A DNA stretch of 64,000 nt from a virus, in the IMG/VR virus record IMGVR_UViG_3300047157_000197, positions 62,001 to 126,000 of that record, one strand, 5' to 3'. The notes below the pieces were generated by a model. It did not search any database, was not told where the DNA came from, and saw nothing but the letters and a program-made list of their open reading frames with translations. Each line of letters begins with the position of its first letter. Position 1 is the first letter of the stretch. Made by a program: the position numbers and the translations under genes. This document shows positions 18,859 through 52,967 of this stretch, piece after piece.

Positions 18859-18876
18859 CAAGTAAAGTTATAAAAA

Positions 18877-33194: not shown

Positions 33195-34187
33195 ATGAAA
33201 AAAACAGACAAAATATTAGTTACAGGAGCAAGTGGATTTATAGGTTCACGATTAGTTAAATCACTTTATGAAGGTGGATTTACAGATATAAGAGCAACAT
33301 CTTGGAGTAGAGATTTAAGAAATGATTTCGAAGGATGTGAAAATGTAGAATTTTTAAAAGGAAATTTACAAGATGCAGATTTTTGTGAAATCGTATCAAA
33401 AGATATTGATGTAATTTTTCATTGTGCAGCTAACACTTCAAATGCTTTGGATACAAAATTTAATCCATTACTTCATGTTACACCAAATATTGAAATGAAT
33501 GTAAATCTTATGGAACAAAGTTGGAGAAACAAAGTTCGTAAGTTTATGTTTATATCATCTAATACAACATATCCTGATATGGGAGATGTTCCTTGTACTG
33601 AAGATATAGAAGTTCAAACACCAGATATTGTACCTGTATATAAAGCAGTGGGTAATATGAAAAGATATTGTGAAACACTTTGTGATTTCTTTTCAAATCA
33701 GATTCACGACCCAATGCAGTGTATTATTATCAGACCTTCTAATGCATTTGGACCAAATGATAAATTTGATTTTGAAAAATGTCATGTTACACCAGCAAAC
33801 ATTAGAAAAGTAGCAGATAATTTAAATCCTATTCCTGTATGGGGAGATGGAACTGAAGTAAGAGATGTTATTCATGTTGATGATATGGTAGGTGGGTTTA
33901 TTACAGTTGCAGAAAAAGTTGATACATACGATATTTACAATGTATCCTATGGTTCAGGTTATACTGTAATGGAAGTACTTGATAAAATTAAAGAAATAGA
34001 AGGAAACACAAATCCGGTAGAATTTGTTAATAACAAAGCACCGATGATACCTGTAAGACTTCTTGGTAACGATAAACTTGTTGCACTTGGATGGAAACCT
34101 AAATATGATTTAGATAGTGGATTGAGAGATGCACTTAAGTGGTATAAAGCAAACAAAGACCAGTTTAATCCAAATTCAAGACCATAA
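33195..34187 (+). CDS. SDR nucleotide-sugar reductase/epimerase (GDP-fucose-synthase-like)
   Basis: A 330-residue extended SDR, related to the preceding gene and 6 bases after it. It has GASGFIGSRL (11-20) for cofactor binding, FISSNTTYPD with the catalytic Ser/Thr, IIRPSNAFGPNDKFD, CHVTPANIRKV and WGDGTEVRDVIHVDDM. The segment YKAVGNMKRYCE keeps the Lys but lacks a Tyr four residues before it. The next gene starts within its stop codon (overlap of 1 base), indicating coupled translation. Confidence 0.83.
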   Translation: MKKTDKILVTGASGFIGSRLVKSLYEGGFTDIRATSWSRDLRNDFEGCENVEFLKGNLQDADFCEIVSKDIDVIFHCAANTSNALDTKFNPLLHVTPNIEMNVNLMEQSWRNKVRKFMFISSNTTYPDMGDVPCTEDIEVQTPDIVPVYKAVGNMKRYCETLCDFFSNQIHDPMQCIIIRPSNAFGPNDKFDFEKCHVTPANIRKVADNLNPIPVWGDGTEVRDVIHVDDMVGGFITVAEKVDTYDIYNVSYGSGYTVMEVLDKIKEIEGNTNPVEFVNNKAPMIPVRLLGNDKLVALGWKPKYDLDSGLRDALKWYKANKDQFNPNSRP

Positions 34188-34738
34188 TGGCAGAACCAAA
34201 ATTTACACCATATTTAGATGCTTTAACAGAAGCAATGAAATTAAGTATGGAAAATGATAACACAATATTCATCGGACAGCAGATAGTTTATTATGGCAAC
34301 CCAATGAGTAAAACCATTGAAGGATTGCCAAAAGAACGAATGATTGAAACTCCTGTAATGGAAGAAGTTCAAATGGGAATGACTTTAGGGTTAGCAATGT
34401 ATGGTCATTCAGTAATTAGTTTTTATCCAAGATGGGATTTTGTTATATGTGCTGCAAATCAATTAGTAAATCATTTAGATAAAATAAATGTAATGTCTGA
34501 TGGTGCATGGAATCCAAATATAATTATTCGAGTTGGTAAGGGAAGTGATACACCACTTGACCCTGGTCATCAACACAAAGCAGATTATACAGAAGAATTT
34601 TCATCTATGTTAAAACATACAAATGTAGTAAAACTTGATACTCATGAAAAAATACTTCCAGCTTATAAAGAAGCATTAACAAATGGTGGTATTTGGGTGA
34701 TGGTTGAATATCCTCAATTATACTATGAAGATAAATAG
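34187..34738 (+). CDS. Thiamine-diphosphate enzyme, E1-beta/transketolase pyrimidine-domain-like subunit
   Basis: A 183-residue protein matching only the pyrimidine-binding domain of E1-beta/transketolase. ETPVMEEVQMGMTLGLAMYG (about 50-69) holds the Glu that activates thiamine, and SFYPRWDFVICAANQLVNHL (about 75-94) is the F-x-x-F region of E1-beta. The C-terminal transketolase domain of E1-beta (total about 325) is missing. It is the natural partner of the 30402 product, although three genes separate them. Substrate unknown. Confidence 0.8.
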   Translation: MAEPKFTPYLDALTEAMKLSMENDNTIFIGQQIVYYGNPMSKTIEGLPKERMIETPVMEEVQMGMTLGLAMYGHSVISFYPRWDFVICAANQLVNHLDKINVMSDGAWNPNIIIRVGKGSDTPLDPGHQHKADYTEEFSSMLKHTNVVKLDTHEKILPAYKEALTNGGIWVMVEYPQLYYEDK

Positions 34739-36305: not shown

Positions 36306-39300
36306 ATGAATAAACTTTCCAAATTTCTCGTAGAGAGTATAATGGAGGATGCGAATCCTATTAAAAAAACCGTAGTTGTCTATGTGGGTAGGTTTCAACC
36401 TATGCATAAAGGACATGCTGGTACTTACCAACACCTTGTCAAAAAGTTCGGTAAGGATAATGTTTATGTTGGTACATCTGATAAGGTACAATTACCTAAA
36501 TCACCTTTTAACTTTAAAGAAAAGGTAAAAATTATGACTACTATGTTTGGAATTCCAAAATCCAAAATACATAAAGTCAAGAATCCATACAAACCCACAG
36601 AAATTCTTAAAAAGTTTGATGAAGAAACAACTGCATTCGTAACTGTTGTTGGTGAGAAAGATAAAAACCGATTAGGTGGTAAATACTTTCAACCATATAA
36701 GGGAGAACCATCTGTGGGATATAGAGATGGTGGGTATGTTTATGCAGCTCCAATGACTGGTGGTTCAGTAAGTGGTACAGAAGTACGAAATGGATTATCA
36801 GTTGGTTCTGATGAACAGAAAAAGAATTTCTTTAAGAAACGAGCATATGGAAAGTTTAATGCAACTATTTTTAGTATGATTACTGATAAACTCGATGAGG
36901 GAATTGAAATTTCTAAAGAGATGATTGAGGAGTGGTTGTTAAACGAGGGTTCTAAGATGGGAAGTGGTCAAGCAGATGACGGACCTAACTTTATGTTTCC
37001 AAATTATGATGTTTTCTCTAAGATAAATGTAGATAGAGCAAAAAGAATTGGTTATGAAGTGGTAAATATGATTACTAACAAAGAGTTAGAAGATTACTAT
37101 GACCATCCAACATACCCAAATGGACCTGTTAAAGCAGTAACTCCATTTCCAGCAGGTGTACTTGGTACAACAACTGCAACTAACCAAGTTGATATCTATT
37201 CATCAGATGCTTATTCTAAATGGTTTAAGCACGTAACTCGTAAAGCAGCATTAGTTGGTTACGAATTAGTAAAAGGATTAGATACTAATAAAGATGAAAA
37301 AGAACAATCATTAGATTCTCAAAAAGGTGATAAAAAATCACAAGAAGAATACGAAGCATCTTTAAATGAAAATATAGTACTACCAATTAAAGTTGGCGAT
37401 ACCATTATGACTGGTAGATTTAAGAACAAGAAAACAGTTGTTAAATCAATCGGTAAAGATGAACATGGAATGCCAACAATCAATGGTAGAAAAGTAGTTA
37501 CCTTTAGAATGGTTAAAGAAGGATTCATTTCAGAACTTGCAGGAACAGAAGTAAAGTGTGAAAAATGTAATCACCAATGGGAAATCGAATCTGATGATAG
37601 TGAAAAGTATTTATGTCATTCATGTGGATGGGATTCTCAAAAAGGAGAATACGATTTTGATGCATTTGATTCGTGGCAAGAGAAAATGGGTATATCCGAA
37701 GATGTAGATGTAGAAGAAAGTAAAGGTAGATTAAGACCCGCCGCATTACTTAGAAGAAAAGCAGCGATGGCTGGAAAACGAGCTCAAATTGCAAGAAGGA
37801 GAGCAAGAACAATGAAGAGAAGAAAACCTCTTTCTAAACTTAAAAAGATTGCATACAAAAAAGCATACCTACAAGTTTATGATGAGTTTATGAAAGATTT
37901 GTTTCCTGGTAAAAAGAAAAATGAATTATCTATCGCACAGGCTAAAGTAGTTCATAAGAATGTATTAAGAAAAAAAGGTAGAGTTAGGAAAAGAGCCAAG
38001 TTTAGATTCTTGCCAGCATTAAGAGATGCAGAAGTACAGAAGTTTGGTAAAAAAGATGATACTAATGAATTGATGATTGGATATGCTGGACCTGAAGATA
38101 TGAAAAGGTTCGATAAAAGAAATAAGGAATATAGAAAAGATTCTGATTCTAATAAAGAATATCAATACGATACTATAAAGGAAGTTAATGAATTCTTTTA
38201 TATGGATTTCAAAAAGTATGTTTACAAAAACAGAAAACAAATCAATCAAAAACTAAAAGGATTATCTTATAGAAAAAAGGCAGAGTTCTTAGAGTTACTT
38301 TGGAAAAAACAAGTTGGTAAAGGATTCGGTAAAGATGCTGATGGTAGAGATATACATTACAAACTTAAATCAGATAAAGTAATTAAGGAATCGTTACCAA
38401 CAAAGGTAACAGATAAGTTTAAATCTGTAAAGAGTAGTAAACCTTCATCAGAAGCTGAAAAGGATTTTAATAAACATCATACATATTCATCATATGCAAA
38501 AAGAGGTTCAATAGCTGAACCAGATACAATTGATTTTGATGATGATGATAAAAAAGGTGGACATCAAGAGAAAGAAAAGGATACTAAGAAAAGAGGATAT
38601 GAACCAATTGAAGAAAGTTTAAAAGATTTAGGAATAAAAGATTTTAAATCGTTATTTAAGAAAATGCCTTCTGATTTACAAAAGAGAGTTTACAATCTAA
38701 AAAACTTTGGACAGAGAGTAGATAAACATCCTGAAGGAAATGTTCTTAAACACACAATCGTAGTTGTAAATCGTTCAATCAAAGAAGATGATATTGATAT
38801 TGCAATAGCAGCAATGTTCCATGATATAGGAAAAGATGAAACTGCAGGTATTCATCCAAAGAAAGGACACATTACACACTTTGGACATGAGAAAGTATCG
38901 GCATCTTTAGTAAAGAAGTATAAAAAGTTTATAGAATCAGTTGGTGGTAATCCAGCAAATGTATTTTACATTGTTAAAAACCATATGAGATACAAACAAC
39001 TATCTGTAATGACTCCTAAAAAAGTAAATAAACTAAAATCATTCAGAGCATTTGATAAATTAGGTAAATTCTCAAAACACGATAGAAGTGGATTAGATGA
39101 GAACAAAGCAACAAGAACTAAATTTAGTTTATCTGTACCATCTGATATTAAAAAACTTCAAAAGGCATTTAAAAAGAATAAAAAACAACTTTATGTTGTA
39201 GGTGGAGCAGTTAGAGATGCACTTATGGGTAATTCCCCAAAAGATTTCGATTTAACAACAGATGCAACACCAGAAGAAATGATTAAGATTGCTAAACAAG

Positions 39301-41513
39301 GTAATTTTAAACATTCAACAAATAACGTAAACTCAAATCTTGGATTGGGTAGTATAATCATAAATGGACACGAGGTAACTACATTTAGAGAAGATATTGG
39401 TAAAGGTAGAAGGCCTGATAAAGTAAAGTGGTGTGATATTTCAACTGATTCTAAAAGAAGAGATTTAACTTGTAACTCATTATACTATGATATTGATAAA
39501 AAAGAGATTATTGATTTTCATGGTGGAGTAGAAGATTTAAAAAAGGGTGTTGTTAAAACAGTTGGTAAAGCATCAGAACGATTTGATGAAGACCCATTAA
39601 GAAAATTAAGAGCAGTAAGGTTTGAAACTAGATTAGGTGGTAAACTTGATAAAGAAACATTAACTGCACTTAAAAAAGATAACAACATATCACAACTTTC
39701 AGGTGAAAGAATCATGAGAGAGTTTAGAAGTGCAATCAAACAATCAAAAAACACTAAAGTTTATTTAGAAAGATGTGATGAGATTGGATTTACTAAACAA
39801 ATCCTACCAGGTCTTAAAGTAAGTAAACCATATCCACACGATAATAACTATCTTACATTTATTGCATTTATTTTAAGAGATAATGACCCGAGTAAAGTAG
39901 GAAACGTATTAAATAAAATTAATTATAGTAATAATGATAAAGATGATATTACATTTTTAATATCATTAAAGGATTTCACACCAGAAAAGATTATCCAATT
40001 TAAAAAACAACATGAAAATGTAAAATCAATATCTGATAAAGATATTTTAGAATTTGGTAAACGAATTGGTAAAAAACTTGATAAGTTTGTAAAATTTAAG
40101 TTATCTGTAAAGGGAAGTGATATACCAAAAGATATACCTAATGGACCAGAACGAGGTAATTGGATTAAAAATCAAGAAAAGGAAAAGTTTATGAATGAAA
40201 TAGAACAATTAATAAGTGATATTGATAATAAAATAGTTGAAATGTTTTTACCAAACACTAAAACACCACAACAACTAATCAAAGAAAACATAAACGAAAC
40301 CAAATTACTACAAGAGGGTGGTGCGTATGGACACATGTCTCATCCATTTGATACTGATATCAATTTAACCTTTGGACAACTTAAAGATATCGTAAATCGT
40401 GCTTTAGAAGGTACACTTGAGTTCACACGAGAGAAAACAGATGGTCAAGCACTAGCTATTTCATGGAGAGATGGTAGGTTAGTAGCCGCAAGAAACAAAG
40501 GACACCTTAAAAACAAAGGTGAGAACGCTTTAGATATCAAAGGTGTATCAGATAAGTTCCAAGGTAGAGGTGGATTGAGTGATGCTTACAATTATGCAAT
40601 GAAAGACTTATCGAATGCTATCAAATCCCTTTCAGATAAACAAAGAGATAAGATTTTTAAACAAGGTGCGTGTTTTATGAACCTTGAAGTGATATATCCA
40701 ACATCAGTAAACGTTATTCCTTATGGTCAAGCATTACTTGTGTTCCATGGTACTATGGAATTCAACATGGATGGTGTTGCAATTGGAGAGAATGGTGATG
40801 CGGCTAGAATATTAGCTGGTATGATTAAACAAGTTAACAAAGATGTACAAGATAATTACACTATTCAAGGACCTCCTATTGTAAAATTACCAAAATCACA
40901 AGATTTATCTACTAAACGTAGTAAATACTCATCAATGATATCCAAATTGCAGAGTGAGTTTAGTTTAAAAGATACTGATGGTGTTGCAAACTATCACCAA
41001 TCATGGTGGGAACAATGGGTTGATAAGAATTCTCCATCATCACTTGATAATAAAACCAAAATGGGGTTAGTTAAGAGATGGGCATTCATGGATAAGAAGT
41101 TTAGATTAGATAAAAAGAACATTACTGATGAAAAAACATTAGAATGGGCTAAGAAAATAGATAAAGAAGACCAAAAGAAGATTAGTAAAAAGAACTTAAT
41201 GAAGTTTGAACAAATATTCTTAGGTTTAGGTGCAGAAGTGTTAGAGTTTACCTCATCTGCACTAACAGTTAATGCTGATGGAGCAGTTCGTGATATGAAA
41301 AAACGAATTGATAAGACAATTAAAGATGTTAAGAAATCAGGTGACCCAAAAAAGATAGAAAAACTTAAATTAGAACTTGGTAGATTAAAATCTATCGGTG
41401 GTTCTAAAAAAATTGTACCGAATGAAGGTATTGTGTTCTTATATAAAGGAAATACTTTTAAACTTACAGGTACATTCGCATCCGTAAATCAGATACTAGG
41501 TATTTTCTTTTAA
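36306..41513 (+). CDS. Giant multidomain nucleotidyltransferase/HD/CCA-adding/ligase-like protein
   Basis: 1735 residues in one frame. Parts in order: N-terminal amphipathic segment MNKLSKFLVESIMEDA; NMNAT/cytidylyltransferase-like domain ~20-190 (YVGRFQPMHKGH 26-37); zinc ribbon CEKC 418-421/CHSC 437-440; very basic region ~460-700; HD domain ~800-900 (AMFHDIGKDE from 836, later a second conserved His region); CCA-adding/poly(A)-polymerase head ~960-1170 (GGAVRD 966-971, DFD 980-982, RRDLTCNSLYYD 1051-1062, DEDPLRKLRAVRF 1094-1106); and a covalent nucleotidyltransferase (RNA/DNA ligase-like) domain ~1340-1600 (REKTDGQAL from 1375 carries a K-x-D-G motif). (L/I)-x-E sites between the parts (LLNEGS ~211, SLNEN ~352, LLQEGG ~1334) resemble prohead-protease sites. 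A combined RNA and NAD repair role is inferred. Confidence 0.8.
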   Translation: MNKLSKFLVESIMEDANPIKKTVVVYVGRFQPMHKGHAGTYQHLVKKFGKDNVYVGTSDKVQLPKSPFNFKEKVKIMTTMFGIPKSKIHKVKNPYKPTEILKKFDEETTAFVTVVGEKDKNRLGGKYFQPYKGEPSVGYRDGGYVYAAPMTGGSVSGTEVRNGLSVGSDEQKKNFFKKRAYGKFNATIFSMITDKLDEGIEISKEMIEEWLLNEGSKMGSGQADDGPNFMFPNYDVFSKINVDRAKRIGYEVVNMITNKELEDYYDHPTYPNGPVKAVTPFPAGVLGTTTATNQVDIYSSDAYSKWFKHVTRKAALVGYELVKGLDTNKDEKEQSLDSQKGDKKSQEEYEASLNENIVLPIKVGDTIMTGRFKNKKTVVKSIGKDEHGMPTINGRKVVTFRMVKEGFISELAGTEVKCEKCNHQWEIESDDSEKYLCHSCGWDSQKGEYDFDAFDSWQEKMGISEDVDVEESKGRLRPAALLRRKAAMAGKRAQIARRRARTMKRRKPLSKLKKIAYKKAYLQVYDEFMKDLFPGKKKNELSIAQAKVVHKNVLRKKGRVRKRAKFRFLPALRDAEVQKFGKKDDTNELMIGYAGPEDMKRFDKRNKEYRKDSDSNKEYQYDTIKEVNEFFYMDFKKYVYKNRKQINQKLKGLSYRKKAEFLELLWKKQVGKGFGKDADGRDIHYKLKSDKVIKESLPTKVTDKFKSVKSSKPSSEAEKDFNKHHTYSSYAKRGSIAEPDTIDFDDDDKKGGHQEKEKDTKKRGYEPIEESLKDLGIKDFKSLFKKMPSDLQKRVYNLKNFGQRVDKHPEGNVLKHTIVVVNRSIKEDDIDIAIAAMFHDIGKDETAGIHPKKGHITHFGHEKVSASLVKKYKKFIESVGGNPANVFYIVKNHMRYKQLSVMTPKKVNKLKSFRAFDKLGKFSKHDRSGLDENKATRTKFSLSVPSDIKKLQKAFKKNKKQLYVVGGAVRDALMGNSPKDFDLTTDATPEEMIKIAKQGNFKHSTNNVNSNLGLGSIIINGHEVTTFREDIGKGRRPDKVKWCDISTDSKRRDLTCNSLYYDIDKKEIIDFHGGVEDLKKGVVKTVGKASERFDEDPLRKLRAVRFETRLGGKLDKETLTALKKDNNISQLSGERIMREFRSAIKQSKNTKVYLERCDEIGFTKQILPGLKVSKPYPHDNNYLTFIAFILRDNDPSKVGNVLNKINYSNNDKDDITFLISLKDFTPEKIIQFKKQHENVKSISDKDILEFGKRIGKKLDKFVKFKLSVKGSDIPKDIPNGPERGNWIKNQEKEKFMNEIEQLISDIDNKIVEMFLPNTKTPQQLIKENINETKLLQEGGAYGHMSHPFDTDINLTFGQLKDIVNRALEGTLEFTREKTDGQALAISWRDGRLVAARNKGHLKNKGENALDIKGVSDKFQGRGGLSDAYNYAMKDLSNAIKSLSDKQRDKIFKQGACFMNLEVIYPTSVNVIPYGQALLVFHGTMEFNMDGVAIGENGDAARILAGMIKQVNKDVQDNYTIQGPPIVKLPKSQDLSTKRSKYSSMISKLQSEFSLKDTDGVANYHQSWWEQWVDKNSPSSLDNKTKMGLVKRWAFMDKKFRLDKKNITDEKTLEWAKKIDKEDQKKISKKNLMKFEQIFLGLGAEVLEFTSSALTVNADGAVRDMKKRIDKTIKDVKKSGDPKKIEKLKLELGRLKSIGGSKKIVPNEGIVFLYKGNTFKLTGTFASVNQILGIFF

Positions 41514-42908: not shown

Positions 42909-44501
42909 ATGGCTAAACAAAGTTTAAAAGAAATAATAAAACTTGAGTATCAGAAATGTGCTCAAGACCCTATATACTTCATGAAGAAGTACTGTATGAT
43001 ACAACATCCAGTTAGGGGGAAAATTCCTTTTCACTTATATCAGTTTCAAGAAAGAACTTTAGACCAATTCGCAGAACACAGATACAACATCATTCTTAAA
43101 TCTCGACAAACGGGTATCTCAACCTTAACTGCGGGATTTTCACTTTGGAAGATGTTATTCAATCAAGATTTTAATGTATTGGTAATTGCAACTAAACAAG
43201 AAGTTGCCAAGAACCTTGTAACGAAGGTTCGTGTAATGAATCAATATTTACCATCATGGTTAAAACAAAATACAGTAGAGGATAACAAACTATCCTTAAG
43301 ATACTCGAATGGTTCTCAGATAAAAGCAACTTCAGCCGCTGGTGATGCTGGTCGTTCTGAAGCATTATCTTTATTAGTATTTGATGAGGCAGCATTTATT
43401 GATAAGATTGAAGATATTTGGGTATCGGCACAATCAACACTATCGACTGGGGGTAATGCAATTATCCTATCTACTCCAAATGGTGTAGGAAACTTTTTTC
43501 ACAAAACTTGGGTAGGTGCAGAAGAAGAAACAAATACTTTTAACACTATTAGATTACATTGGAGTGTACATCCAGAAAGAGACCAAGATTGGAGAGATGA
43601 ACAAGAAGTTTTATTAGGACCAAAAGGAGCAGCACAAGAATGTGATTGTGATTTTGTATCTTCGGGTGATACTGTGATAGACCCACAACTCCTTATGTTC
43701 TATAAAGAATCATTTATCCAAGAACCAGTTGAAAAGACTGGATTCGATGGAAATCTTTGGAAGTGGGAATATCCAAACTATCAGAAATCTTATATGGTAG
43801 TTGCCGATGTTGCTCGTGGTGATGCTGCCGATTTCTCGGCATGTCATGTTATTGATATAGAAGAATCATCTCAAGTTGCAGAATATAAAGGTAAATTAGA
43901 TACAAAAGATTTTGGAAATTTTCTTGTATCTCTTGCAACCGATTATAACAATGCATTACTAGTAGTTGAGAACGCAAATATTGGTTGGGCAGTAATTCAA
44001 CAAGTAATTGATAGAGGATATGGAAACCTTTTCTATATGAGTAAAGATTTAAAGTATGTAGATGTAGAGAATCAATTAACAAACAAATACAGAGCACAAG
44101 ATAGAGGGTTAACTGCAGGTTTTAGTACAACATCTAAAACAAGACCTCTAATCATATCTAAATTAGAACAATACATTAGAGAAAAATCCGTTACAATTCG
44201 TTCACAAAGAACAATAGATGAATTATTTACATTTATATGGAATGGTAATAGAGCAGAAGCAATGAGGGGTTATAATGATGATTTAACGATGTCCCTTGCA
44301 ATATCGTTGTGGGTTAGAGATACTGCTTTGAGATTAAGACAAGAAGGAATTGATTTAACAAAACAGGCATTAGGTGGAATTGGAGCACATCAATTGGATG
44401 TTGCTGGAATGGGATTTGGTGGTAATGCTTCTATGGATGAAAACCCATGGAAAATGCGGGTTGGGGATAGTAATGAAGATTTAACTTGGTTAATTAAATA
44501 A
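42909..44501 (+). CDS. Terminase large subunit (T4 gp17-like)
   Basis: 530 residues; the ATP-driven DNA-packaging motor and nuclease. ATPase: Walker A-like SRQTGIST (about 65-72) and Walker B LLVFDEAAFI (about 131-140) followed by the coupling motif LSTPNG. Nuclease (RNase-H-like): VADVARGDAADFSA with the first Asp, VVENANIG with the central Glu, and NDDLTMSLAI with the final Asp. The length is near T4 gp17 (610). It starts one base after the previous stop and ends just before a promoter-like box. Confidence 0.95.
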   Translation: MAKQSLKEIIKLEYQKCAQDPIYFMKKYCMIQHPVRGKIPFHLYQFQERTLDQFAEHRYNIILKSRQTGISTLTAGFSLWKMLFNQDFNVLVIATKQEVAKNLVTKVRVMNQYLPSWLKQNTVEDNKLSLRYSNGSQIKATSAAGDAGRSEALSLLVFDEAAFIDKIEDIWVSAQSTLSTGGNAIILSTPNGVGNFFHKTWVGAEEETNTFNTIRLHWSVHPERDQDWRDEQEVLLGPKGAAQECDCDFVSSGDTVIDPQLLMFYKESFIQEPVEKTGFDGNLWKWEYPNYQKSYMVVADVARGDAADFSACHVIDIEESSQVAEYKGKLDTKDFGNFLVSLATDYNNALLVVENANIGWAVIQQVIDRGYGNLFYMSKDLKYVDVENQLTNKYRAQDRGLTAGFSTTSKTRPLIISKLEQYIREKSVTIRSQRTIDELFTFIWNGNRAEAMRGYNDDLTMSLAISLWVRDTALRLRQEGIDLTKQALGGIGAHQLDVAGMGFGGNASMDENPWKMRVGDSNEDLTWLIK

Positions 44502-44532: not shown

Positions 44533-44922
44533 ATGATATCATTAAAAAATTTACTTAACGAAGAAATACACACAGAAGAATATACTGTGGAAAATTATCA
44601 CGATATAAAAGAATTCTGTGAATTCATGAAAGAATACAAATCTGATATGAATGAAGCTGAGTATCAAGGTAGAACAGTTAAACTTGGAAAACCAATGCAA
44701 GGTGATACTAAGAAATTCAAAGTATATGTCAAAAACCCCAAAGGTAATGTAGTAAAAGTAAACTTTGGACATGGAGGAAGTTCAGCAAAGAAATCAGGAG
44801 AAAAAACAATGTCTATTCGAAAGAATAATCCAGATGCAAGAAAAGCATTTAGAGCTAGACACAATTGTGATTCACCAGGTCCAAGACACAAAGCAAGATA
44901 CTGGTCTTGTAGAAAATGGTAA
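44533..44922 (+). CDS. Probable internal head protein with C-terminal RYWSCRKW domain
   Basis: 129 residues. The N-terminus MISLKNLLNEEI is a short amphipathic segment with an L-x-E site, like T4 capsid-targeting sequences; a second site, DMNEAE, lies near residue 40. The C-terminal ~85 residues form a basic domain (KFKVYVKNPKGNVVKVNFG, ... RKAFRARHNCDSPGPRHKAR, then YWSCRKW) with two conserved-looking cysteines, similar in style to small DNA-associated proteins of phages. It lies between terminase and portal genes with a strong Shine-Dalgarno. Packaging in the capsid is inferred, not shown. Confidence 0.7.
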   Translation: MISLKNLLNEEIHTEEYTVENYHDIKEFCEFMKEYKSDMNEAEYQGRTVKLGKPMQGDTKKFKVYVKNPKGNVVKVNFGHGGSSAKKSGEKTMSIRKNNPDARKAFRARHNCDSPGPRHKARYWSCRKW

Positions 44923-44963: not shown

Positions 44964-46700
44964 ATGGCAGATACTTCATTTTTTGGTAGATTAACGAAAC
45001 TCTTTCGTACTCAAGCAGTTGTTACTGTTGATAAAGAGGGTAAGAGAAAAGTAATTGATACCGATGAAAGACAACAAACTAACTTATCTTCTTTAAGAGA
45101 TAGGTACACGAAACTACAAAAAGGTTTCTATGAACAAGCAGGTGGTGCTCAATCAATGGCATACCAACAAGTTCGTAGAGAAGTTTTTAGAGATTTTGAT
45201 GCAATGGATAATGACCCAATATTAGCATCAGCTCTTGATATATACGCAGATGAATCAACACTAAAAAATGAATTTGGTGATACTCTTGGAATTGTATCTG
45301 ATAATCAACAAGTACAAGAAATATTAAGAAACTTATTTTATGATGTTCTTAATATTGAATTCAACTTATGGCCATGGGTAAGAAATATGTGTAAGTATGG
45401 AGATTTCTTCTTAGGTTTAGAAATCGCTGAAGGTAAAGGTATTGTTAACGTTACACCTCATTCAGTTTACAACACAGAAAGATTAGAAAGAACAGACCCA
45501 TCGAATCCAAACTCAGTAAAGTTTAAAATTACTGAAGACCCAAATGGAAAAGAACAATACGAAAACTTTGAAGTTGCTCACTTTAGATTATTAGCAGATA
45601 CAAACTGGTTACCATATGGTAAATCTATGATTGAGAATGGACGAAGATTGTGGAAACAATTATCTTTAATGGAAGATGCAATGTTAATCCATAGAATTAT
45701 GAGAGCACCTGAAAAGAGAGTTTTCAAAGTAGATATAGGAAACATACCTCCAACAGAAGTAGATAACTATATGCAAAGAATTATGAACAAGATGAAGAAA
45801 GTTCCTTTTGTTGATAGAAATACTGGTGATTACAACTTAAAGTACAATATGCAAAACCTAACAGAAGATTTTTATCTACCTGTTCGTGGTGGTGATAGTG
45901 GAACCAATATTGAAAATCTTGCTGGTTTAGAATATGCAAGTATTGAGGATATTGATTATCTAAAAAACAAATTATTTGCAGCTCTAAAGATTCCAAAAGC
46001 TTATTTAGGATATGAAGAAAATGTAGGTGGTAAAGCAACTCTTGCTGCAGAAGATGTTAGATTCGCAAGAACAATAGAAAGAATACAAAGAACCGTAGTA
46101 TCTGAATTAACTAAAATTGCAATAGTACATTTATATGCACAAGGAGTTACTGATTCAGAAATGACAAACTTTGAATTACAATTAGTAAATCCATCTTTTA
46201 TTTACGAACAAGAAAAATTAAATCTTTGGAGTGAAAAAATTAGATTAGCTCAAGATATACAAGGTCTTAATATGTTATCTAAAGATTGGGTATATGATAA
46301 TGTATTTAAATTATCAGATGGAGAATCCGATGAACAAAGAGTTCAGATGTTAGATGATTTAAAAGATAGATATAGATTCCGTTCTATTGAAGATGAGGGT
46401 AATGACCCTGCACAAGAAGATGAAGAGCCAGATGATATTGAGGAATCAATTGAAAAACTAAAACAAGAAATAAAAGATAAAGGTGGTAGACCGAAAGAAG
46501 GTGGAACATATGGAAAAGATAAACACCCATATGGAAGAGACCCTTTAGGAGATAAAGAAAGAAAAGATGCTAAAAGAAACACAACTTCTGAAGAAAAAGC
46601 TATACAATATATTAATGGTATTGCATCAAAAAGAAAATATTTACATGAATTAAAAGGTATGTTAGATGAGGAGAATATCCTCAAAGATACTGAAAATTAA
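44964..46700 (+). CDS. Portal vertex protein (T4 gp20-like)
   Basis: 578 residues (T4 gp20 is 524). The dodecameric portal is the entry for DNA and the starting point of prohead assembly. Diagnostic stretches are FDAMDNDPILASALDIYADE, EFNLWPWVRNMCKYGDFFLG, HRIMRAPEKRVFKVDIGNI and LKIPKAYLGYEENVGGKATL, all typical of gp20 of T4-like phages. The C-terminal tail is highly charged (EEPDDIEESIEKLKQEIKDKGG) and longer than usual. It stands in the expected place after the terminase and before prohead-core genes. Confidence 0.93.
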   Translation: MADTSFFGRLTKLFRTQAVVTVDKEGKRKVIDTDERQQTNLSSLRDRYTKLQKGFYEQAGGAQSMAYQQVRREVFRDFDAMDNDPILASALDIYADESTLKNEFGDTLGIVSDNQQVQEILRNLFYDVLNIEFNLWPWVRNMCKYGDFFLGLEIAEGKGIVNVTPHSVYNTERLERTDPSNPNSVKFKITEDPNGKEQYENFEVAHFRLLADTNWLPYGKSMIENGRRLWKQLSLMEDAMLIHRIMRAPEKRVFKVDIGNIPPTEVDNYMQRIMNKMKKVPFVDRNTGDYNLKYNMQNLTEDFYLPVRGGDSGTNIENLAGLEYASIEDIDYLKNKLFAALKIPKAYLGYEENVGGKATLAAEDVRFARTIERIQRTVVSELTKIAIVHLYAQGVTDSEMTNFELQLVNPSFIYEQEKLNLWSEKIRLAQDIQGLNMLSKDWVYDNVFKLSDGESDEQRVQMLDDLKDRYRFRSIEDEGNDPAQEDEEPDDIEESIEKLKQEIKDKGGRPKEGGTYGKDKHPYGRDPLGDKERKDAKRNTTSEEKAIQYINGIASKRKYLHELKGMLDEENILKDTEN

Positions 46701-46766: not shown

Positions 46767-47639
46767 ATGAAAAAAATAAAACACTCAAAATTTAAGAATA
46801 CTGGTTTTCTTTTTGAGCTTTTAACTCGACAAATTACCATGGAAATACTAAATGGTAGTGAGGAAAAGGCTAAAGGAATAATTAAAGAATTCTATGGCAG
46901 AGGAACAGAATTATCTAAAGAACTTAGATTATTTAACCTTTTAATAAATGAAAGATATAATACAGAATCAAAGGCTGAAAAGTTTATTGATGCTATTTTA
47001 GAAGCACATACTAAAATAAATTATAAAACAATTCAACGAGAAAAATATAATCTTATTAAATCTATTAAAGAAAATTTTGAAATAAATAATTTTTTATCAT
47101 CTCCCGTAACAAATTATAAAATTTTAGCATCAATTCATAAATTATTTGAAGGTAAAAAGAATAATATTCTTGATGTTAAAGATGTATTTAATTCTAAAAT
47201 AACTATTGTAGAGCACATTTCATCGAATTCCCAAATTACAAAAAATGCTAAACAAGATAAATTAGTTGAAGAATACAAAAAACAAGAAAAAGACCTTAGA
47301 TTGTTGACATATAAGATTCTTGTTGAAACTTTTAACAAAAAATATACTACTTTAGATAAATCACAAAAAGGATTATTAAGAGAGTATATTAATAATGTTA
47401 CTAACACATCAAAGTTTAATGAATATTTTGAATCTCAGTTAATTGAAACAATCACATCTTTACATTCAATGTATAAAGGTATGAAAGATAAGATTACAAA
47501 AATAAAGTTGAGAGAAACAATAAATGTTTTGAAAAAACAGAAAATCGGTAAGAAAATTACAGATGAACAAGTTTCAGCTTTAATGATGTCTTATGAGTTG
47601 ATTAAGGAGATAAAAAATGTCAATGGAACAAAATCTTAA
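46767..47639 (+). CDS. Conserved-type head-module protein, possibly prohead core
   Basis: A 290-residue, Lys-rich, mostly helical protein beginning MKKIKHSKFKNTGFLFELLT. The position directly after the portal is where T4 has core genes 67 and 68. The KHSKFKNTG.LFELL opening is a pattern I associate with hypothetical proteins next to the portal in marine T4-like phages. No enzymatic motif is seen. The next gene begins 23 bases before its stop. Confidence 0.65.
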   Translation: MKKIKHSKFKNTGFLFELLTRQITMEILNGSEEKAKGIIKEFYGRGTELSKELRLFNLLINERYNTESKAEKFIDAILEAHTKINYKTIQREKYNLIKSIKENFEINNFLSSPVTNYKILASIHKLFEGKKNNILDVKDVFNSKITIVEHISSNSQITKNAKQDKLVEEYKKQEKDLRLLTYKILVETFNKKYTTLDKSQKGLLREYINNVTNTSKFNEYFESQLIETITSLHSMYKGMKDKITKIKLRETINVLKKQKIGKKITDEQVSALMMSYELIKEIKNVNGTKS

Positions 47640-49164
47640 TAAATTTTTAGAAGAACTTATCCAAGAAGTTGAAAAAGAATTGGATGAGGCAACTGCAACA
47701 GGCAATGTAGCTGGGTATAATGTACCTGGTGCATTTTCTAATGGTGGTGCTAAAGATAAGAAGCGTAAGAAAAAGATTTCAACTCAATTCGGTATGAAGA
47801 TAGTTGGTAAGGTGGATGAAGATTCAGTAAACGAATCAATAATTACTGAAAAACAATTAAAAGGATTAGATGGAATTGATTCTAAAACTCATCTAAAAAA
47901 AATCTCAGATAAACAAAAATTAAAAATCATACAAGGGAATGGAAATATTATTTCATTTAAAGTTCCAAAGGGAAGTAGTAGAAATTTTTGGCAAGTAATA
48001 GTAAAAGGTAAAATTAAAAAAACAAGAAATCTTCAAGGATATGTAAGGTATATTGTACCTGGTAAAATGATAAATTCTCCTTTTTTTAAATCTGAGAAAG
48101 ATTTAATTAATGGTGTTGATTGGGATTCTGTTGAACAAACTCGTAGATTTAACGAATCAGTAAAAGAAGCAACATTCAGACCAAATTCAGGTACTATGAG
48201 TGGTGGTACATATGGTTTAGATAAAAGAAAGTATGAATTAAAAAGAGATGTTAAAGGTGTACAAATCGGTGATTATACAAATGTAACATTACCTAAAGGA
48301 ACTATTATATATAACTTACCAGGTGGAGTATTTGCACACCATCGTTCATTAAAAAGCTATGAAGCTGGAATGAATAAATATTTTAATAAACCTACATTCA
48401 GAGGAATATCAATTAGAAGAGAAAAAAATGTTATTCTTTCAATAGAAAAAAATTCAAAGATATTAGAATCAGTAAACGAAATATTAGTAATAGTAGATAA
48501 GTTTGATAAAAGGAAACAAGATTACGATAAAGTTTATTACCAAGATGGTGGTAAAAGACCAGGTGATGGAGATATCAACAAAGCACAAAAAGAATTTGCT
48601 AAGTTAAGTAAGAAACATAAAGGTTTAACTCTTATATCTGTTGATAGAAACAGTAAGATGTATGATGTAAATGAATCGGTAAACGAAGCAAAAAAAACTG
48701 ACCAATGGACACTTGATGTAATAGACCACTTAGAATACTTAAAATATCCAAAAAAAGATATAGATTATATAATGGATTTTGAGAAAAAGAAGATTAAAGG
48801 ATGGAAAAGAAAAAAAGTAAATCCAACTTCGGTGGGGCAACAATTAAATATTATTCTTAAAAAACTCAGAAGGAACGAAGCAATAGAATCAGTAAACGAA
48901 GCTAAAGTAAAAAGACCAGTAAATCGTTGGTTAGAATTAAAAAACGATGATTCAATGCATGCTCATAAGAAAATGGCTATGGGATTGAAAGAACTTAAAT
49001 ATCAACTTAGAGAAACAGAAAAATTCTTTAATTGGTATAATAAGATTAAAACAATGAATGAGTTAGATTCTGATAACTATTGGAAAAGAACAAACAAACA
49101 TATTTATAAGATAAAGGAGAGATTGATAAACATCGCTCGAACTATACAGGAGATAGAAAAATGA
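47617..49164 (+). CDS. Modular internal head polyprotein with repeated SVNE sites
   Basis: 515 residues; the start is supported by AAGGAG 8 bases upstream. The N-terminus (NLNKFLEELIQEVEKELDE) is an amphipathic helix ending in LDEATATG at 22-29, the same octapeptide found at the predicted cleavage site of the major capsid protein (59-66). Further sites split the chain into about six modules of 60-110 residues: DSVNES, FNESVKEA, LESVNEI, NESVNEA and IESVNEA. One module holds GTIIYNLPGGVFAHH and another KYPKKDIDYIMDFEKKKI. The pattern fits a cargo protein cut by the gp21-like protease and packaged with DNA. The modules are of unknown function. Confidence 0.7.
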   Translation: MSMEQNLNKFLEELIQEVEKELDEATATGNVAGYNVPGAFSNGGAKDKKRKKKISTQFGMKIVGKVDEDSVNESIITEKQLKGLDGIDSKTHLKKISDKQKLKIIQGNGNIISFKVPKGSSRNFWQVIVKGKIKKTRNLQGYVRYIVPGKMINSPFFKSEKDLINGVDWDSVEQTRRFNESVKEATFRPNSGTMSGGTYGLDKRKYELKRDVKGVQIGDYTNVTLPKGTIIYNLPGGVFAHHRSLKSYEAGMNKYFNKPTFRGISIRREKNVILSIEKNSKILESVNEILVIVDKFDKRKQDYDKVYYQDGGKRPGDGDINKAQKEFAKLSKKHKGLTLISVDRNSKMYDVNESVNEAKKTDQWTLDVIDHLEYLKYPKKDIDYIMDFEKKKIKGWKRKKVNPTSVGQQLNIILKKLRRNEAIESVNEAKVKRPVNRWLELKNDDSMHAHKKMAMGLKELKYQLRETEKFFNWYNKIKTMNELDSDNYWKRTNKHIYKIKERLINIARTIQEIEK

Positions 49165-49443: not shown

Positions 49444-49620
49444 GTGACTAAAAAAGAATTGTATGATATAATCAATGAGGAAATCGTTAACTTCAAAAAA
49501 GGAAAAATTAACGAAGACCTTAATGAGTCTGATAAAGATTTAATAAGAAAAATCATCAGACAAGAGGTATCAGCAATCTTTTTTGATTTATTTAAAAAAC
49601 GTAAAAGTTGGGGAGCATAA
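49444..49620 (+). CDS. 58-residue head-module protein (GTG start)
   Basis: GTG at 49444 starts a 58-codon frame (MTKKELYDIINEEIVNFKKG...) ending in TAA at 49618-49620, whose last base is the first base of the protease ATG. The C-terminus RKIIRQEVSAIFFDLFKKRK is an amphipathic helix with a hydrophobic face, and KINEDLNE carries two possible I/L-x-E sites. Tight packing, one base after the previous stop and overlapping the next start, supports a real gene. It probably belongs to the prohead core. Confidence 0.65.
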   Translation: MTKKELYDIINEEIVNFKKGKINEDLNESDKDLIRKIIRQEVSAIFFDLFKKRKSWGA

Positions 49621-50201
49621 TGGCAAATTTATTAATAGAAACAAACCTATTCGAAGGTAGAGTAAACGAGGACGAGAGTGGAAGAACTATCGTTAAGGGT
49701 ATTTTACAAAGAGCAGGTGCAGAAAATCAAAATGGAAGGATATATCCTAAACCAATTTTGATGAGAGAAGCTAAGAAATACGAAACACTTATTAAAGAAA
49801 GAAGAGCACTTGGTGAATTAGACCATCCAGATTCTTCTGTAATCAATCTAAAGAATGTATCTCATAACGTAAGAGAGATTCATTGGGATAACGATGATTT
49901 AGTAGGAACAGTTGAGATATTACCTACCCCATCTGGTAACATCTTAAAAGAACTACTTAAAGCAGGAATCCTTTTAGGTATATCATCAAGAGGTATGGGT
50001 TCAGTAGAACCTCTATCAGGTGGTAAAGTACAAGTAGGTGAAGATTTTGAATTGATAGGTTGGGATTTTGTTTCTAATCCATCAACACATGGAGCATTTA
50101 TGACTCCGATGAACGAATCTGTTAACAAACAAGGTGAAGTTTGTAACGAGTGGTGTAAATCACAAGATTTAATGAGAGAAATTATAACAGAATTAAACTA
50201 A
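49620..50201 (+). CDS. Prohead core protease (T4 gp21-like)
   Basis: 193 residues from ATG 49620 (TAATG overlap; a TTG 12 bases upstream is less likely). It is the serine protease that matures the T4-type prohead. Family features are ILQRAGAENQNGRIYP near the N-terminus, the catalytic His in GELDHPDSS (about 60-68) and the catalytic Ser in GISSRGMGS (about 119-127), followed by DFELIGWDFVSNPS. Its C-terminal part contains NESVNKQ, nearly the same as the SVNE sites in neighbouring proteins, suggesting self-processing. Length is close to T4 gp21 (212). Confidence 0.92.
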   Translation: MANLLIETNLFEGRVNEDESGRTIVKGILQRAGAENQNGRIYPKPILMREAKKYETLIKERRALGELDHPDSSVINLKNVSHNVREIHWDNDDLVGTVEILPTPSGNILKELLKAGILLGISSRGMGSVEPLSGGKVQVGEDFELIGWDFVSNPSTHGAFMTPMNESVNKQGEVCNEWCKSQDLMREIITELN

Positions 50202-50204
50202 GTT

Positions 50205-50393
50205 ATGGCATTTGATATAAAAAAATATTTAGGTGATAATGATATTAAATTAGGAACAGTAACAAGAAACGTTGCAAGTGTTCCATTTAAAGGTGGTCAC
50301 AACGATATAAGAAAAACTAATTATGATGTTAAGATTACCGAAGATGGTAAACTTGATTTATATACTCTTAAAAAGGAGACAAAGAAATTATGA
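50205..50393 (+). CDS. 62-residue protein, unknown function
   Basis: A small Lys-rich protein (MAFDIKKYLGDNDIKLGTVT...) starting 3 bases after the protease stop and overlapping the next gene by 4 bases (ATGA). SVPFKGGHNDIRKTNYDVKI looks like a beta-hairpin. No family recognised. By position it is probably a minor head or core component. Confidence 0.6.
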   Translation: MAFDIKKYLGDNDIKLGTVTRNVASVPFKGGHNDIRKTNYDVKITEDGKLDLYTLKKETKKL

Positions 50394-52204
50394 TTAAACT
50401 AACTGATTTATTACAAGAACAAGATTCATTTACTGCAATCAACAAAAGTAGTGGTAACGTAACTGCATTTAAATCAAAAGATGCAAGAGACTCTGCAGTT
50501 AAATCAGGTACTCATGATAAAAATAAAGATTCAGAAGATGATGATGATAAAAAAGATACTCCTAAAGTAAACATCTTTAAAAGGGATAATGATTCCGACT
50601 CAAAGAAAAATCTTCAGAAAATGAAAAAAGATAAAAGTGGAACTCAAAAATCTTTATTTCCTGATGAGAAACCAGATTCAAAACCAACTGGTGATTCTAA
50701 TAAAATAAAAGACCCAAAAGGAATGTCAAAGGTTGTTCCTAAAGATATTGGAACAGACCCTGATAAGATGGAAGCTTGGCTATTTGATGAAGATGGTGCA
50801 ATTGGAGATGGTCAAAGTTTCGGAATGAGTGATAAAAACGCAGATGAACTTTACAATTTACATGGTAAATATGATGATGCAAAAAAAGCTGGTGATAAAA
50901 AAGAAATTGAACGAACTAAGAAAGAGTACATTGAATTTGTTTATAACAATTTAGAAAAAAATCAAAACAAACCAAAAGAACCTGAAACAAACGATTATTG
51001 GAACAAGGATAAAGATGCACCTAAGAGAGATGATAACACCGATACACAGATAGATGATGTTCAAAATAATATTGGTGATTTAGATGGCGATGAAATGAGA
51101 GATTATGCAGAATCAGATATATTCCCATATCTTAAAGGGAAAGATTTAGAAATTGCAAAATCATTAGTAGATGATATTGAAGATTCTGGTTCAGATTTTG
51201 TTAGAAGTGCTGATGTAAGGGCAGATTTAAAAGATTTATTTGATAAGAAAATGACTTTAGATTCTCCAAAAATAAAACCTTTTGCTCCAAAACCATCTAA
51301 AATTGTACTAAAGAACCTTGATACATTAGGTGACATGGCGATTGGTGATAAACCAGCATTAAATCCAAAAGATATGGGTGATGCAGAATATGAAAGAACA
51401 ATGTTACGAATGATACATAATTCATTAGAAGATTCAAACTATCATACGGCTAACAGATTTATCTTTGCAGATTTAGAAGGTAATAAAGAAAAAAGAAAGA
51501 AAGCTGATTTCAGAAATGCTCCAGATTTAGGTTCGCCTGATTATAAAGATTGGACAGAAAAAAACACTATCTATACAAAAGATTTTAATGCAGGATTTAA
51601 TAGAAAAAATGAAAGAGATGATTTATTTGATAAAGTTTCAATTGAAGCTGCTCAAAAATCAGGACATGATGGTGGACAAATTCTTGCTGGTTATCTTGTA
51701 AAACTAAGAAAAGATGGTAAAGAAGATTTAGCAAATAGAATTCAAAAATCATTTGAAGATGCTGAAAAATCTATGGATGAGGGTAAACTTAGTATCACAT
51801 CTCTTGTTAAAGAATCTATATTTATAAAAAATTTAATCAACGAAGGAACTCGTTCTCAAGTTGGTGTGATTGGTAGAAATGGTAAGATTGTTTCTGCATA
51901 CGTTCATTTCGATGGTTATCCATCAAATATGAAACCAGGTTTAAAACATCACATGAAGAACGAAAAAGATGTTCTTAAACTAATCAAGATGGGTGGGGCA
52001 AGAGGAATCTTTGATGATAAAGAAATTGAATATTACAAAAAAAGTGGTCAACCATTAAAAGGTGATTCTAAAGATATTAAATCATATATTAACGATGCTG
52101 GAGTTGAGGCTGGAGCAGAATATGTATATTTATACAATATAAAGGATAAGAAATGGTATTTCGCCGATGTATATGGTAAAAAAGAACTAAAAAAATTATT
52201 TTAA
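50390..52204 (+). CDS. Internal head polyprotein with conserved-looking C-terminal domain
   Basis: 604 residues. It begins MIKLTDLLQEQDSF, a capsid-targeting-like segment with an LLQE site. A long low-complexity Asp/Lys region (about 25-220) is followed by helical sequence. LINEGTRSQVGVI marks a probable cut, releasing a ~125-residue C-terminal domain (AYVHFDGYPSNMKPGLKHH, ... DVLKLIKMGGARGIFDDKE). The acidic-basic low-complexity part is typical of packaged internal proteins. It overlaps the upstream gene by 4 bases. Function unknown. Confidence 0.68.
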   Translation: MIKLTDLLQEQDSFTAINKSSGNVTAFKSKDARDSAVKSGTHDKNKDSEDDDDKKDTPKVNIFKRDNDSDSKKNLQKMKKDKSGTQKSLFPDEKPDSKPTGDSNKIKDPKGMSKVVPKDIGTDPDKMEAWLFDEDGAIGDGQSFGMSDKNADELYNLHGKYDDAKKAGDKKEIERTKKEYIEFVYNNLEKNQNKPKEPETNDYWNKDKDAPKRDDNTDTQIDDVQNNIGDLDGDEMRDYAESDIFPYLKGKDLEIAKSLVDDIEDSGSDFVRSADVRADLKDLFDKKMTLDSPKIKPFAPKPSKIVLKNLDTLGDMAIGDKPALNPKDMGDAEYERTMLRMIHNSLEDSNYHTANRFIFADLEGNKEKRKKADFRNAPDLGSPDYKDWTEKNTIYTKDFNAGFNRKNERDDLFDKVSIEAAQKSGHDGGQILAGYLVKLRKDGKEDLANRIQKSFEDAEKSMDEGKLSITSLVKESIFIKNLINEGTRSQVGVIGRNGKIVSAYVHFDGYPSNMKPGLKHHMKNEKDVLKLIKMGGARGIFDDKEIEYYKKSGQPLKGDSKDIKSYINDAGVEAGAEYVYLYNIKDKKWYFADVYGKKELKKLF

Positions 52205-52214: not shown

Positions 52215-52967
52215 ATGATTAAATTAACCCAACTAATGAACGAATCAGAAGAAAAGAGACCTCTTTCTAATGAAGTTAAAAAACACTTCTTAGAAATCGT
52301 TTCTACTTACAACAAGTACCAAGAATCAATGGATAGAAAATCTGATATTACTCAAGTAGCAGAAACACTTGGTGGTATTACAGAAGCAGCTAGAACATTA
52401 GCAATTCACGAAGGAGATGATTGGTTTGATAAACACACCATTAAAAGAAACATGAGTGAATTGGATAAGTTGGGTAAACAATTCGATAAAGTTGCTCTTG
52501 AAGCTAAGGCACTTGACCAAAGAATGGGTGGATTATATGAAGATATGGGACACATACTTTCAAGGTACTACAAGATTGGTGAGATTTCAGAAGACCAGAT
52601 GAAAGAACGTTTAGGAATGAACGAATCTAAAGAAGATTGTGGTTGTGGATGTAATGGAACAACTCCAGGTGGATGTAATGAATCTTTAAACGAAGAACCT
52701 GTTGCAGTATCAATGAGAAACGATGATGGTTCTATCACTACTACAATAAAAGAAGTAAATGAATTAAATGAACAAGAAACTGCATTATATGAGTTTGGCC
52801 AAAAGGTTGAAACTCTAATGGAGAAAAATTGTCCAACTGATTCAAGTAAATGGAGTTCTTACAAATCACAAGCAAAAAAGAAATTTGATGTTTATCCATC
52901 AGCATATGCTAATGGTTGGGCAGCTAAGAAATATAAAGCAGCAGGTGGAGGATGGAAGAAATGCTAA
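52215..52967 (+). CDS. Head-module protein with Cys cluster and C-terminal GWAAKKYK domain
   Basis: 250 residues. The N-terminus MIKLTQLMNESEEKRPL repeats the LMNE-type start of its neighbour. A helical domain follows (about 20-135), then a cysteine cluster CGCGCNGTTPGGC (about 144-156) that could bind zinc, a pair of sites (NESLNEEP, ELNEQE), and a C-terminal ~50-residue domain CPTDSSKWSSYKSQAKKKFD, then VYPSAYANGWAAKKYK, rich in aromatic and basic residues. The last domain is compact and looks nucleic-acid binding. It overlaps the next gene by 16 bases. Confidence 0.68.
   Translation: MIKLTQLMNESEEKRPLSNEVKKHFLEIVSTYNKYQESMDRKSDITQVAETLGGITEAARTLAIHEGDDWFDKHTIKRNMSELDKLGKQFDKVALEAKALDQRMGGLYEDMGHILSRYYKIGEISEDQMKERLGMNESKEDCGCGCNGTTPGGCNESLNEEPVAVSMRNDDGSITTTIKEVNELNEQETALYEFGQKVETLMEKNCPTDSSKWSSYKSQAKKKFDVYPSAYANGWAAKKYKAAGGGWKKC

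Follow-up and report, generated by a model that had tools for sequence, protein, structure and literature searches.

Domain architecture of the protein

The window analysed in this study is a stretch of 64,000 nucleotides, bases 62001-126000 of the 275,970-base virus record IMGVR_UViG_3300047157_000197. Its main subject is an open reading frame (ORF) of this marine T4-like phage at 36306-41513 on the plus strand, as are all cassettes and head-module genes described below. The ORF starts with ATG and encodes 1735 residues without interruption. A preliminary description of the sequence had reported this long frame together with the motifs of several enzymes, and both the frame and all of the quoted motifs were confirmed. 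Cassette-wise alignment with 46 non-redundant full-length homologues, which fall into two lineages, resolved a short leader, a string of cassettes and a C-terminal ligase-like domain.

The first cassette (residues 19-205, 36360-36920) is a nucleotidyltransferase of the NMNAT type (HxGH). It carries GRFQPMHKGH at residues 28-37, and both signatures of the family (GRFQPxHxGH and SGTxxR) are present on a HIGH-superfamily fold. The region matched Pfam CTP_transf_like (E=3.9e-5), while a 40-sequence profile retrieved the archaeal NMNAT MJ0541 (E 3.8e-7). The predicted fold resembled that of the NMNAT 1m8j from M. thermoautotrophicum (Foldseek E 3e-5, probability 1.00), and the related adenylyltransferases PPAT and NadD were matched as well.

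The HD phosphohydrolase cassette (residues 771-932, 38616-39101) contains FHDIGKDE at residues 838-845. It was recognised by Pfam HD (3.4e-7), its motif His and Asp are invariant, and its profile was nearest to the HD domain of CCA/poly(A)-type enzymes (3wfp, 2e-4). The next cassette (residues 936-1298, 39111-40199) is of the class II CCA-adding/poly(A) polymerase type, as indicated by the Pfam PolyA_pol head (E=4.6e-27), the PHROG tRNA nucleotidyltransferase family (1.4e-53) and CCA-adding enzymes at the top of the PDB match list (about 1e-26). All motifs of that class (GG-DxD, RRD and EDxxR) were found, including GGAVRD at residues 966-971, DFD at 980-982 and DEDPLRKLRAVRF with E1095/D1096; GGAVRD, DxD, RRD and EDPLR are invariant across homologues. 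The NMNAT, HD and CCA identities proposed in the preliminary description are hence backed by sequence and fold. Loss of catalytic residues across homologues was also looked for, and the CCA, HD and ligase-motif residues proved to be conserved.

Between the NMNAT and HD cassettes lie smaller pieces. A conserved cassette without assigned function (residues 217-353, 36954-37364) occurs in 28 of 28 lineage-1 proteins and was modelled poorly. It is followed by a small cassette (VGDTIMTGRFKNKKTVVKSIGKDEHG..., residues 354-408, 37365-37529), which looks SH3/KOW-like by eye and in lineage 2 sits right after or near the leader. The zinc-ribbon cassette (CxxC...CxxC, residues 410-466, 37533-37703) gave sub-threshold Pfam matches to HypA/Zn_ribbon, and the strongly basic cassette behind it (residues 468-586, 37707-38063) is mobile and bounded by breakpoints. 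Two further cassettes, 'G' (NELMIGYAGPEDMKRF..., residues 587-626, 38064-38183) and 'H' (FFYMDFKKYVYKNRKQIN..., residues 629-700, 38190-38405), were delimited by cassette mapping. Behind the CCA cassette a linker (40200-40304) contains the candidate cut sites MNE/, IVE/, IKE/ and INE/, with LQE/ at residue 1337 (slashes denote cut positions throughout).

The C-terminal ligase-like domain

The last 402 residues (1334-1735, 40305-41510) form a ligase-like covalent nucleotidyltransferase domain, for which no Pfam family was found. The motif REKTDGQAL contains K1377, and K1377, D1379, G1380, E1461, E1707, G1708 and K1719 are invariant in 41 of 41 homologues (36-92% identity). Motifs KxDG (KTDG), E (III), EG (IV; EGIVF) and K (V) of the covalent nucleotidyltransferases are therefore all present in every homologue. 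PF09414 (Pfam RNA_ligase) matched 28 of the 41, weakly, below the cut-off and confined to motif I.

In the structural model of the domain (predicted local distance difference test score 75), the presumed motifs IIIa and IV are separated by an inserted helical region of about 200 residues. When the model was compared with the PDB, the top 22 entries were all polynucleotide ligases (an annotated ATP-dependent DNA ligase and, in the other 21 places, RNA ligases), with a best E of 0.14, which is non-significant. A PDB sequence search with the domain profile gave spurious matches only. Ligase membership on the strength of a profile-profile comparison (hhalign) with the T4 Rnl2 family is not claimed, as the score did not exceed that of column-shuffled controls. 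A search of the genome for a second RNA ligase (PF09414) found none. Based on the model and the motif residues, a ligase fold is probable for the C-terminal domain, with no substrate assigned. The ligase-like domain of the preliminary description was thus upheld in its motif residues and not in a significant ligase match (fold E>=0.14, PF09414 weak). Structure prediction, which that description had suggested as a check, returned the NMNAT fold with probability 1.00 and the ligase fold as non-significant, though ligases head the list.

Cassette shuffling among relatives

In scans of viral contigs, the C-terminal domain had 185 related stretches and the homologous protein of Mel-JY01 had 304, and at least 300 relatives are present in marine viral contigs. 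In the sequenced isolate Mel-JY01 the relative (WWT39297.1), which joins NMNAT and the ligase-like domain, is annotated as a single gene. The 46 proteins of the comparison set range from 1001 to 2463 residues. When reference cassettes were mapped onto them, about 21 cassette types in 27 orders were obtained, and the only constant parts were the short leader (MNELSKFLVESIMED... or MNKLTEWLTKPFLEE...) and the ligase-like domain. An NMNAT cassette is present in 45 of the 46, the exception (L102) having it in the adjoining upstream ORF. The preliminary description had proposed looking for the same domain order in other phages; what came back was this variety, in which even the CCA and HD cassettes are swapped (HD-CCA here, CCA...HD in L013 and L090).

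The ligase-like domains of the two lineages are about half identical. Most lineage-2 members carry the KOW-like cassette at or near the leader, and in this lineage a P-loop kinase is added and the NMNAT cassette is shifted inward. Composition ranges from barely more than NMNAT plus the ligase-like domain to ten or more cassettes. A metallopeptidase-like HELVH cassette occurs in 5 of the 46 relatives, and ParB-like cassettes are also found. As the composition varies in this way among relatives, the protein is a swappable string of predicted cargo and not one fixed enzyme.

Among the NMNAT cassettes SGT...R is kept in 40 of 40, HxGH in 25 of 39. The other 14 of 39 have GxHH, and all of these belong to lineage 2. 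This replacement, seen in Mel-JY01 (L002) as well, is an unusual signature change for the HIGH superfamily.

Leader, candidate cut sites and protease

The leader of the 1735-residue protein (MNKLSKFLVE/SIME/DANP, residues 1-18, 36306-36359) resembles a capsid-targeting sequence (CTS). In T4, CTS leaders comprise 10-19 residues and the prohead protease gp21 is specific for L/I-x-E (PMC9026906). Here I-M-E is located at residues 12-14, inside that range, and the leader has the same plan as that of T4 IPII/IPIII (MKTYQEFIAE/A). It occurs in the full-length homologues and is kept ahead of whichever cassette stands first. The "capsid-like" N-terminus of the preliminary description is better named a CTS-like leader. 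A prohead protease of the T4 gp21 type (Peptidase_S77; 49608-50201; Pfam 8e-26, PHROG head maturation protease 5e-49) is encoded 8 kb downstream, and no internal processing peptidase was found in the 1735-residue protein with Pfam or PHROGs.

The processing site of the T4 capsid protein reads LTE/A. In an N-terminal comparison of major capsid proteins (MCPs), the matching positions read LDE/A in this phage, VSE/A in immuto, ISE/A in Mel-JY01 and LKE/A in LR756508. Because these positions resemble LTE/A, the protease of the phage plausibly keeps the L/I-x-E specificity of T4.

Cassette borders were defined independently, by homology breakpoints between proteins, and repeated junction sequences were removed. 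In lineage 1, 40 of 79 distinct junctions have [LI]xE no further than 10 residues away, compared with 12.7±3.3 for random placement (maximum 26 in 2000 placements). Similarly, the motif was found at this distance from 23 of the 47 distinct lineage-2 junctions (random 6.9±2.4, maximum 15). The control motifs [LI]xD and [LI]xK were flat, while the reversed motif, [LI]xQ and [KRDE]xE reached at most z=2.6. Border enrichment was also computed on the unfiltered junction set and in an [LIV] version. Over the 1735-residue protein as a whole, [LIV][NST]E[AGSNT] occurs at 3 sites, with no excess over shuffles. The cut-site signal is thus one of position at cassette borders, not of overall density.

Head genes and stand-alone counterparts

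Downstream of the ORF lie genes for terminase, gp20 portal, S77 protease, a scaffold-like acidic protein and the gp23 capsid protein, and terminase is at most 5 kb downstream in 129 of the 130 loci with enough sequence. In the window, the terminase large subunit (42909-44501; Pfam Terminase_6N 4.6e-14) is followed by a stand-alone protein whose sequence begins with a CTS-like leader (MISLKNLLNE/E; 44533-44922) and by the T4 gp20-type portal (44964-46700; Pfam Portal_T4 2.5e-69). Next comes a head-module protein (47617-49164) with the leader end ELDE/ATATG and repeated ESVNE/A or ESVNE/G sites. Beyond the protease are encoded a stand-alone CTS-bearing protein (50390-52204), a CTS-bearing head-module protein (MIKLTQLMNE/SEE; 52215-52967), a head-module protein with internal ESVNE/G sites (52952-53983) and the gp23-type MCP (56449-58056; Pfam Gp23 6.9e-76), whose cut site LLDE/ATATG is predicted from the T4 site LTE/AEIGG. 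The two proteins with ESVNE repeats (47617-49164 and 52952-53983) resemble additional, shorter strings of cut-up cargo or scaffold.

Several cassettes also occur as separate genes. A cassette of the L013 polyprotein corresponds to the N-terminal part of the leader-bearing gene at 50390 (BLASTP 36%, about 100 residues, E 6e-8), and this relation is repeated in about 20 loci. A cassette of L082 (581-703) matches a separate gene of the Flavobacterium phage immuto at 53%, and the ligase-like domain exists in the huge phage LR756500 as a stand-alone gene with the leader MKFLKSYEEFLNE/N. Meanwhile, the lineage-2 kinase cassette is represented in the present genome by a separate leader-bearing gene of 272 residues (L181:18764-19582). 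It is 38-53% identical to 29 ORFs of lineage-2 loci, but only past the leader. The kinase is nearest to L-seryl-tRNA kinase (PSTK) and, weakly, to entries for bacterial Pnkp kinase, although these are labelled metallophosphoesterase. Many short leader-bearing genes were also found in the head module of LR756508 (L088), where the portal and prohead-protease genes seem to be interrupted by intein-like and homing-endonuclease-like insertions.

Far from the head module, a second cluster of short leader-bearing proteins was noticed (L181:4528-10300, contig about 230.5-236.3 kb). It includes MIKLKNILSES..., MIKLTSILNEG..., a HAD-like protein with DFDDTLVKT and the kinase at 18764-19582, and is possibly more head cargo. 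Another NMNAT-like nucleotidyltransferase gene of the same genome (GRWQPLHKGH; L181:13503-13904) has no leader.

A probable packaged and processed enzyme cargo

The domains, the shuffling of cassettes, the site enrichment, the leader, the protease gene, the conserved locus and the exchange of cassettes with stand-alone genes are direct observations. Judging from them, we consider the 1735-residue protein to be a modular head-cargo polyprotein that would be packaged by its leader, diced by a gp21-type protease and injected, probably for tRNA or RNA-end repair, and estimate the probability of this reading at about 0.7. Through the leader, the entire chain would enter the prohead core, in the manner of T4 internal proteins with their CTS. 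The S77 protease would then cut [LI]xE between cassettes, as the site statistics and the presence of the gene suggest, and separate enzymes would be set free in the head. By analogy with T4 and with virion-associated cyanophage cytidylyltransferases, these would enter the host together with the ejected DNA. The earlier suggestion that the protein is packaged and cut agrees with the [LI]xE borders, the S77 protease in the module, the CTS-like leaders and the stand-alone CTS-bearing cassettes.

The predicted cargo would consist of four enzymes (NMNAT-type nucleotidyltransferase, class II CCA-type tRNA nucleotidyltransferase, HD phosphohydrolase and ligase-like enzyme) along with small, apparently nucleic-acid-binding pieces, complemented by the PSTK/Pnkp-like kinase that is encoded apart with its own leader. 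Since a CCA enzyme, a CCA-type HD, a kinase and a ligase-type active site make up an inventory for healing and sealing RNA ends, with tRNA as the obvious substrate, the likeliest job would be such repair of cleaved RNA, probably of tRNA. The cargo might perhaps also buffer nicotinamide adenine dinucleotide (NAD). It would act in the first minutes of infection, ahead of phage gene expression. As the border peptide would serve as the cut site too, cassettes could be added, lost or moved without redesign, and hence the cargo could follow local host defences. The predicted packaging and cutting are well supported by comparative evidence, the RNA-repair role moderately and the NAD role weakly. Of the all-in-one RNA and NAD repair machine put forward in the preliminary description, the RNA-repair flavour survives (CCA, CCA-type HD, kinase), whereas the fixed entity does not, given its variable composition. 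The NAD part is uncertain, with the NMNAT motif and fold in its favour here and, on the other side, the GxHH relatives and a search of the record that found no nicotinamide phosphoribosyltransferase (NAPRTase). An NAD salvage operon was rejected on the latter ground.

Taken more broadly, it is rather probable that such proteins constitute a plug-in ejectome of marine T4-like phages, probably of Bacteroidota. Enzyme cassettes cut at their borders would be freed in the head for injection as an interchangeable RNA-repair and NAD set, and would recombine with stand-alone leader-bearing genes. If so, enzymes protecting tRNA and NAD would be in the cell on DNA arrival, before anticodon nucleases and NADases act, and the fast change of injected cargo in T4-like phages would be explained. 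It would also be a natural case of a maturation protease releasing a multi-enzyme payload. Cargo would become readable from genomes, any leader-led cassette bordered by [LI]xE being a candidate injected effector, and the hundreds of marine contigs with the polyprotein would offer many new counter-defence candidates.

Several points weigh against this interpretation. [LI]xE is missing within 10 residues of about half of the distinct junctions, which means that either the breakpoints are blurred or some borders are uncut. The motif is also found inside domains, so together with the motif-free borders the choice of site must depend on exposure. Within each lineage the sampled junctions are still related by descent. 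The ligase assignment, the weakest of the domain calls, is significant by no single method, and several other cassettes have no assigned function. A search of the record, which may be incomplete, found no NAPRTase. The lineage-2 NMNAT cassettes lack the canonical HxGH, hence NAD synthesis is considered for lineage 1 only. Finally, sequence similarity between the cyanophage cytidylyltransferase and the family described here is only weak (E 0.08).

Among the alternatives, head-packaged and diced enzymes could modify host molecules or nucleotide signals instead of mainly repairing RNA: the CCA enzyme would extend or block host tRNAs, the ligase-like enzyme would nucleotidylate a protein and the HD enzyme would destroy cyclic nucleotides. 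The strongly varying content, with its metallopeptidase-like (HELVH), ParB-like and function-unassigned cassettes, would fit such a role, as would the unassigned ligase-like substrate and the many host-directed effectors borne by known polyvalent proteins (PMC5512222). We nevertheless regard it as unlikely, because the CCA head, the CCA-type HD, the PSTK/Pnkp-like kinase and the ligase-type active site fit together as a coherent set for end healing and the CCA and HD catalytic residues are conserved.

That the protein acts as an intact giant multidomain enzyme, with flexible linkers at the borders and an [LI]xE excess due to acidic unstructured composition, seems quite unlikely. The linkers are indeed rich in E, K, S and D, [KRDE]xE shows a mild excess (z about 2.3-2.4), and polyvalent proteins of the N4 vRNAP type are packaged uncut (PMC5512222). 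However, the enrichment is specific to hydrophobic-x-E in both lineages separately, with [LI]xD and [LI]xK flat and the reversed motif weak. Moreover, the border peptides match the type of the MCP cut site, and cassettes also occur as separate leader-bearing genes.

Genes of other functions can adjoin terminase in T4-like phages, and the product could thus be a late cytoplasmic or tail-associated structural protein that is not packaged in the head, its leader serving assembly or being incidental. This is very unlikely, as a CTS-like leader is kept ahead of any first cassette, the stand-alone counterparts, which bear leaders of this kind, belong to the head module, and cytidylyltransferases have been found in cyanophage virions. 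An assembly or annotation artefact (frameshift or chimeric gene fusion) has a negligible chance, being contradicted by the recurrence of the unbroken fusion in dozens of independent contigs, whose cassette orders differ, and by the single annotated gene in the isolate Mel-JY01.

Comparison with known systems

The proposed head-cargo polyprotein is closest in concept to the polyvalent proteins of phages and conjugative elements (Iyer et al. 2017, PMC5512222), which are likewise large, bear disparate enzymatic domains and have been assigned, by prediction, packaging or injection as well as processing. Several unrelated enzymatic activities reside in one polypeptide here as well, and the gene is located beside virion and packaging genes; some relatives of the protein resemble them in metallopeptidase-like and ParB-like cassettes too. 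Processing of polyvalent proteins has been proposed to occur mostly via a built-in zincin peptidase or a C-terminal assemblin-like one; an internal processing peptidase is present in about 36% of them and is not required (PMC5512222). In contrast, processing here would take place in trans, by a T4 gp21-type protease at repeated [LI]xE borders. The enzyme set also differs (NMNAT/CCA/HD/kinase/ligase-like), and among polyvalent proteins Pol-beta nucleotidyltransferases have been reported only for those of conjugative elements (PMC5512222).

In mechanism the nearest system is the CTS of T4, and T4 IPI-IPIII and Alt (PMC9026906) share with the polyprotein a short leader ending in a gp21-type site, an S77 protease, diversity of cargo and presumed ejection. 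However, T4 has one gene and one leader per internal protein, while here one leader precedes each multi-enzyme string with internal sites. The inner-body and ejection proteins of phiKZ and SPN3US (PMC10052503, PMC9026906) are cut after glutamate by a Gp21-like protease (gp175/gp245) at multiple propeptide sites. Propeptides are removed there, whereas several enzymes would be released from one chain here. The bacterial CCA-adding enzyme with HD, Pnkp-type repair and T4 Pnk/Rnl display the same activities as expected of the CCA, HD, kinase and ligase-like cassettes, which in the polyprotein are separable, reordered pieces of probable virion cargo.

Cytidylyltransferases of T4-like cyanophages are, like the first cassette, NMNAT-type and associated with virions, but are encoded by separate genes and not in a polyprotein. 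The enzyme of S-SM1 was detected in purified virions (PMC3037559), as was that of S-CREM2 with 3 peptides (PMC10665884). An NMNAT-type enzyme in cyanophage virions supports the delivery of such enzymes by the virion. In five cyanophages (L217-L221), DUF6267 (T4-GC71) is directly followed by the cytidylyltransferase (T4-GC190), often overlapping or almost touching it. DUF6267 has about 300-400 residues with KxDG and EGxV...K motifs and by motif resembles the ligase-like domain, which suggests that it may be an unrecognised covalent nucleotidyltransferase. Homology between DUF6267 and the ligase-like domain is not claimed, as the profile-profile score did not exceed that of column-shuffled controls. 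In the open-access literature, no paper was found that describes an arrangement of protease-site-bordered cassettes behind one leader.

Host and additional observations

The nearest annotated relatives of the MCP are those of an uncultured huge phage (57%), Mel-JY01 of Microcystis (53%), immuto of Flavobacterium (51%) and Rhodothermus phage RM378 (39%). Together with a contig of a Flavobacteriales metagenome-assembled genome (L215), these relatives weakly point to a Bacteroidota host. The phage carries a few tRNA genes.

No virion proteomics for immuto was found in the literature. Its gp088 and gp087 (L085:236-3560) include a 907-residue protein with a nucleotidyltransferase-like start, an NMNAT-like part and a HEMIHH peptidase-like part, whose gene precedes terminase by 9 kb, as well as a 5'-nucleotidase that has a CTS-like leader. 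This pair appears to be a tractable distant analogue in a cultured flavophage. At 34187-34738 the window encodes a protein similar to part of a transketolase/E1-beta; the gene adjoins an NAD-epimerase-like one and belongs to a cluster of sugar/glycosyltransferase-like genes.

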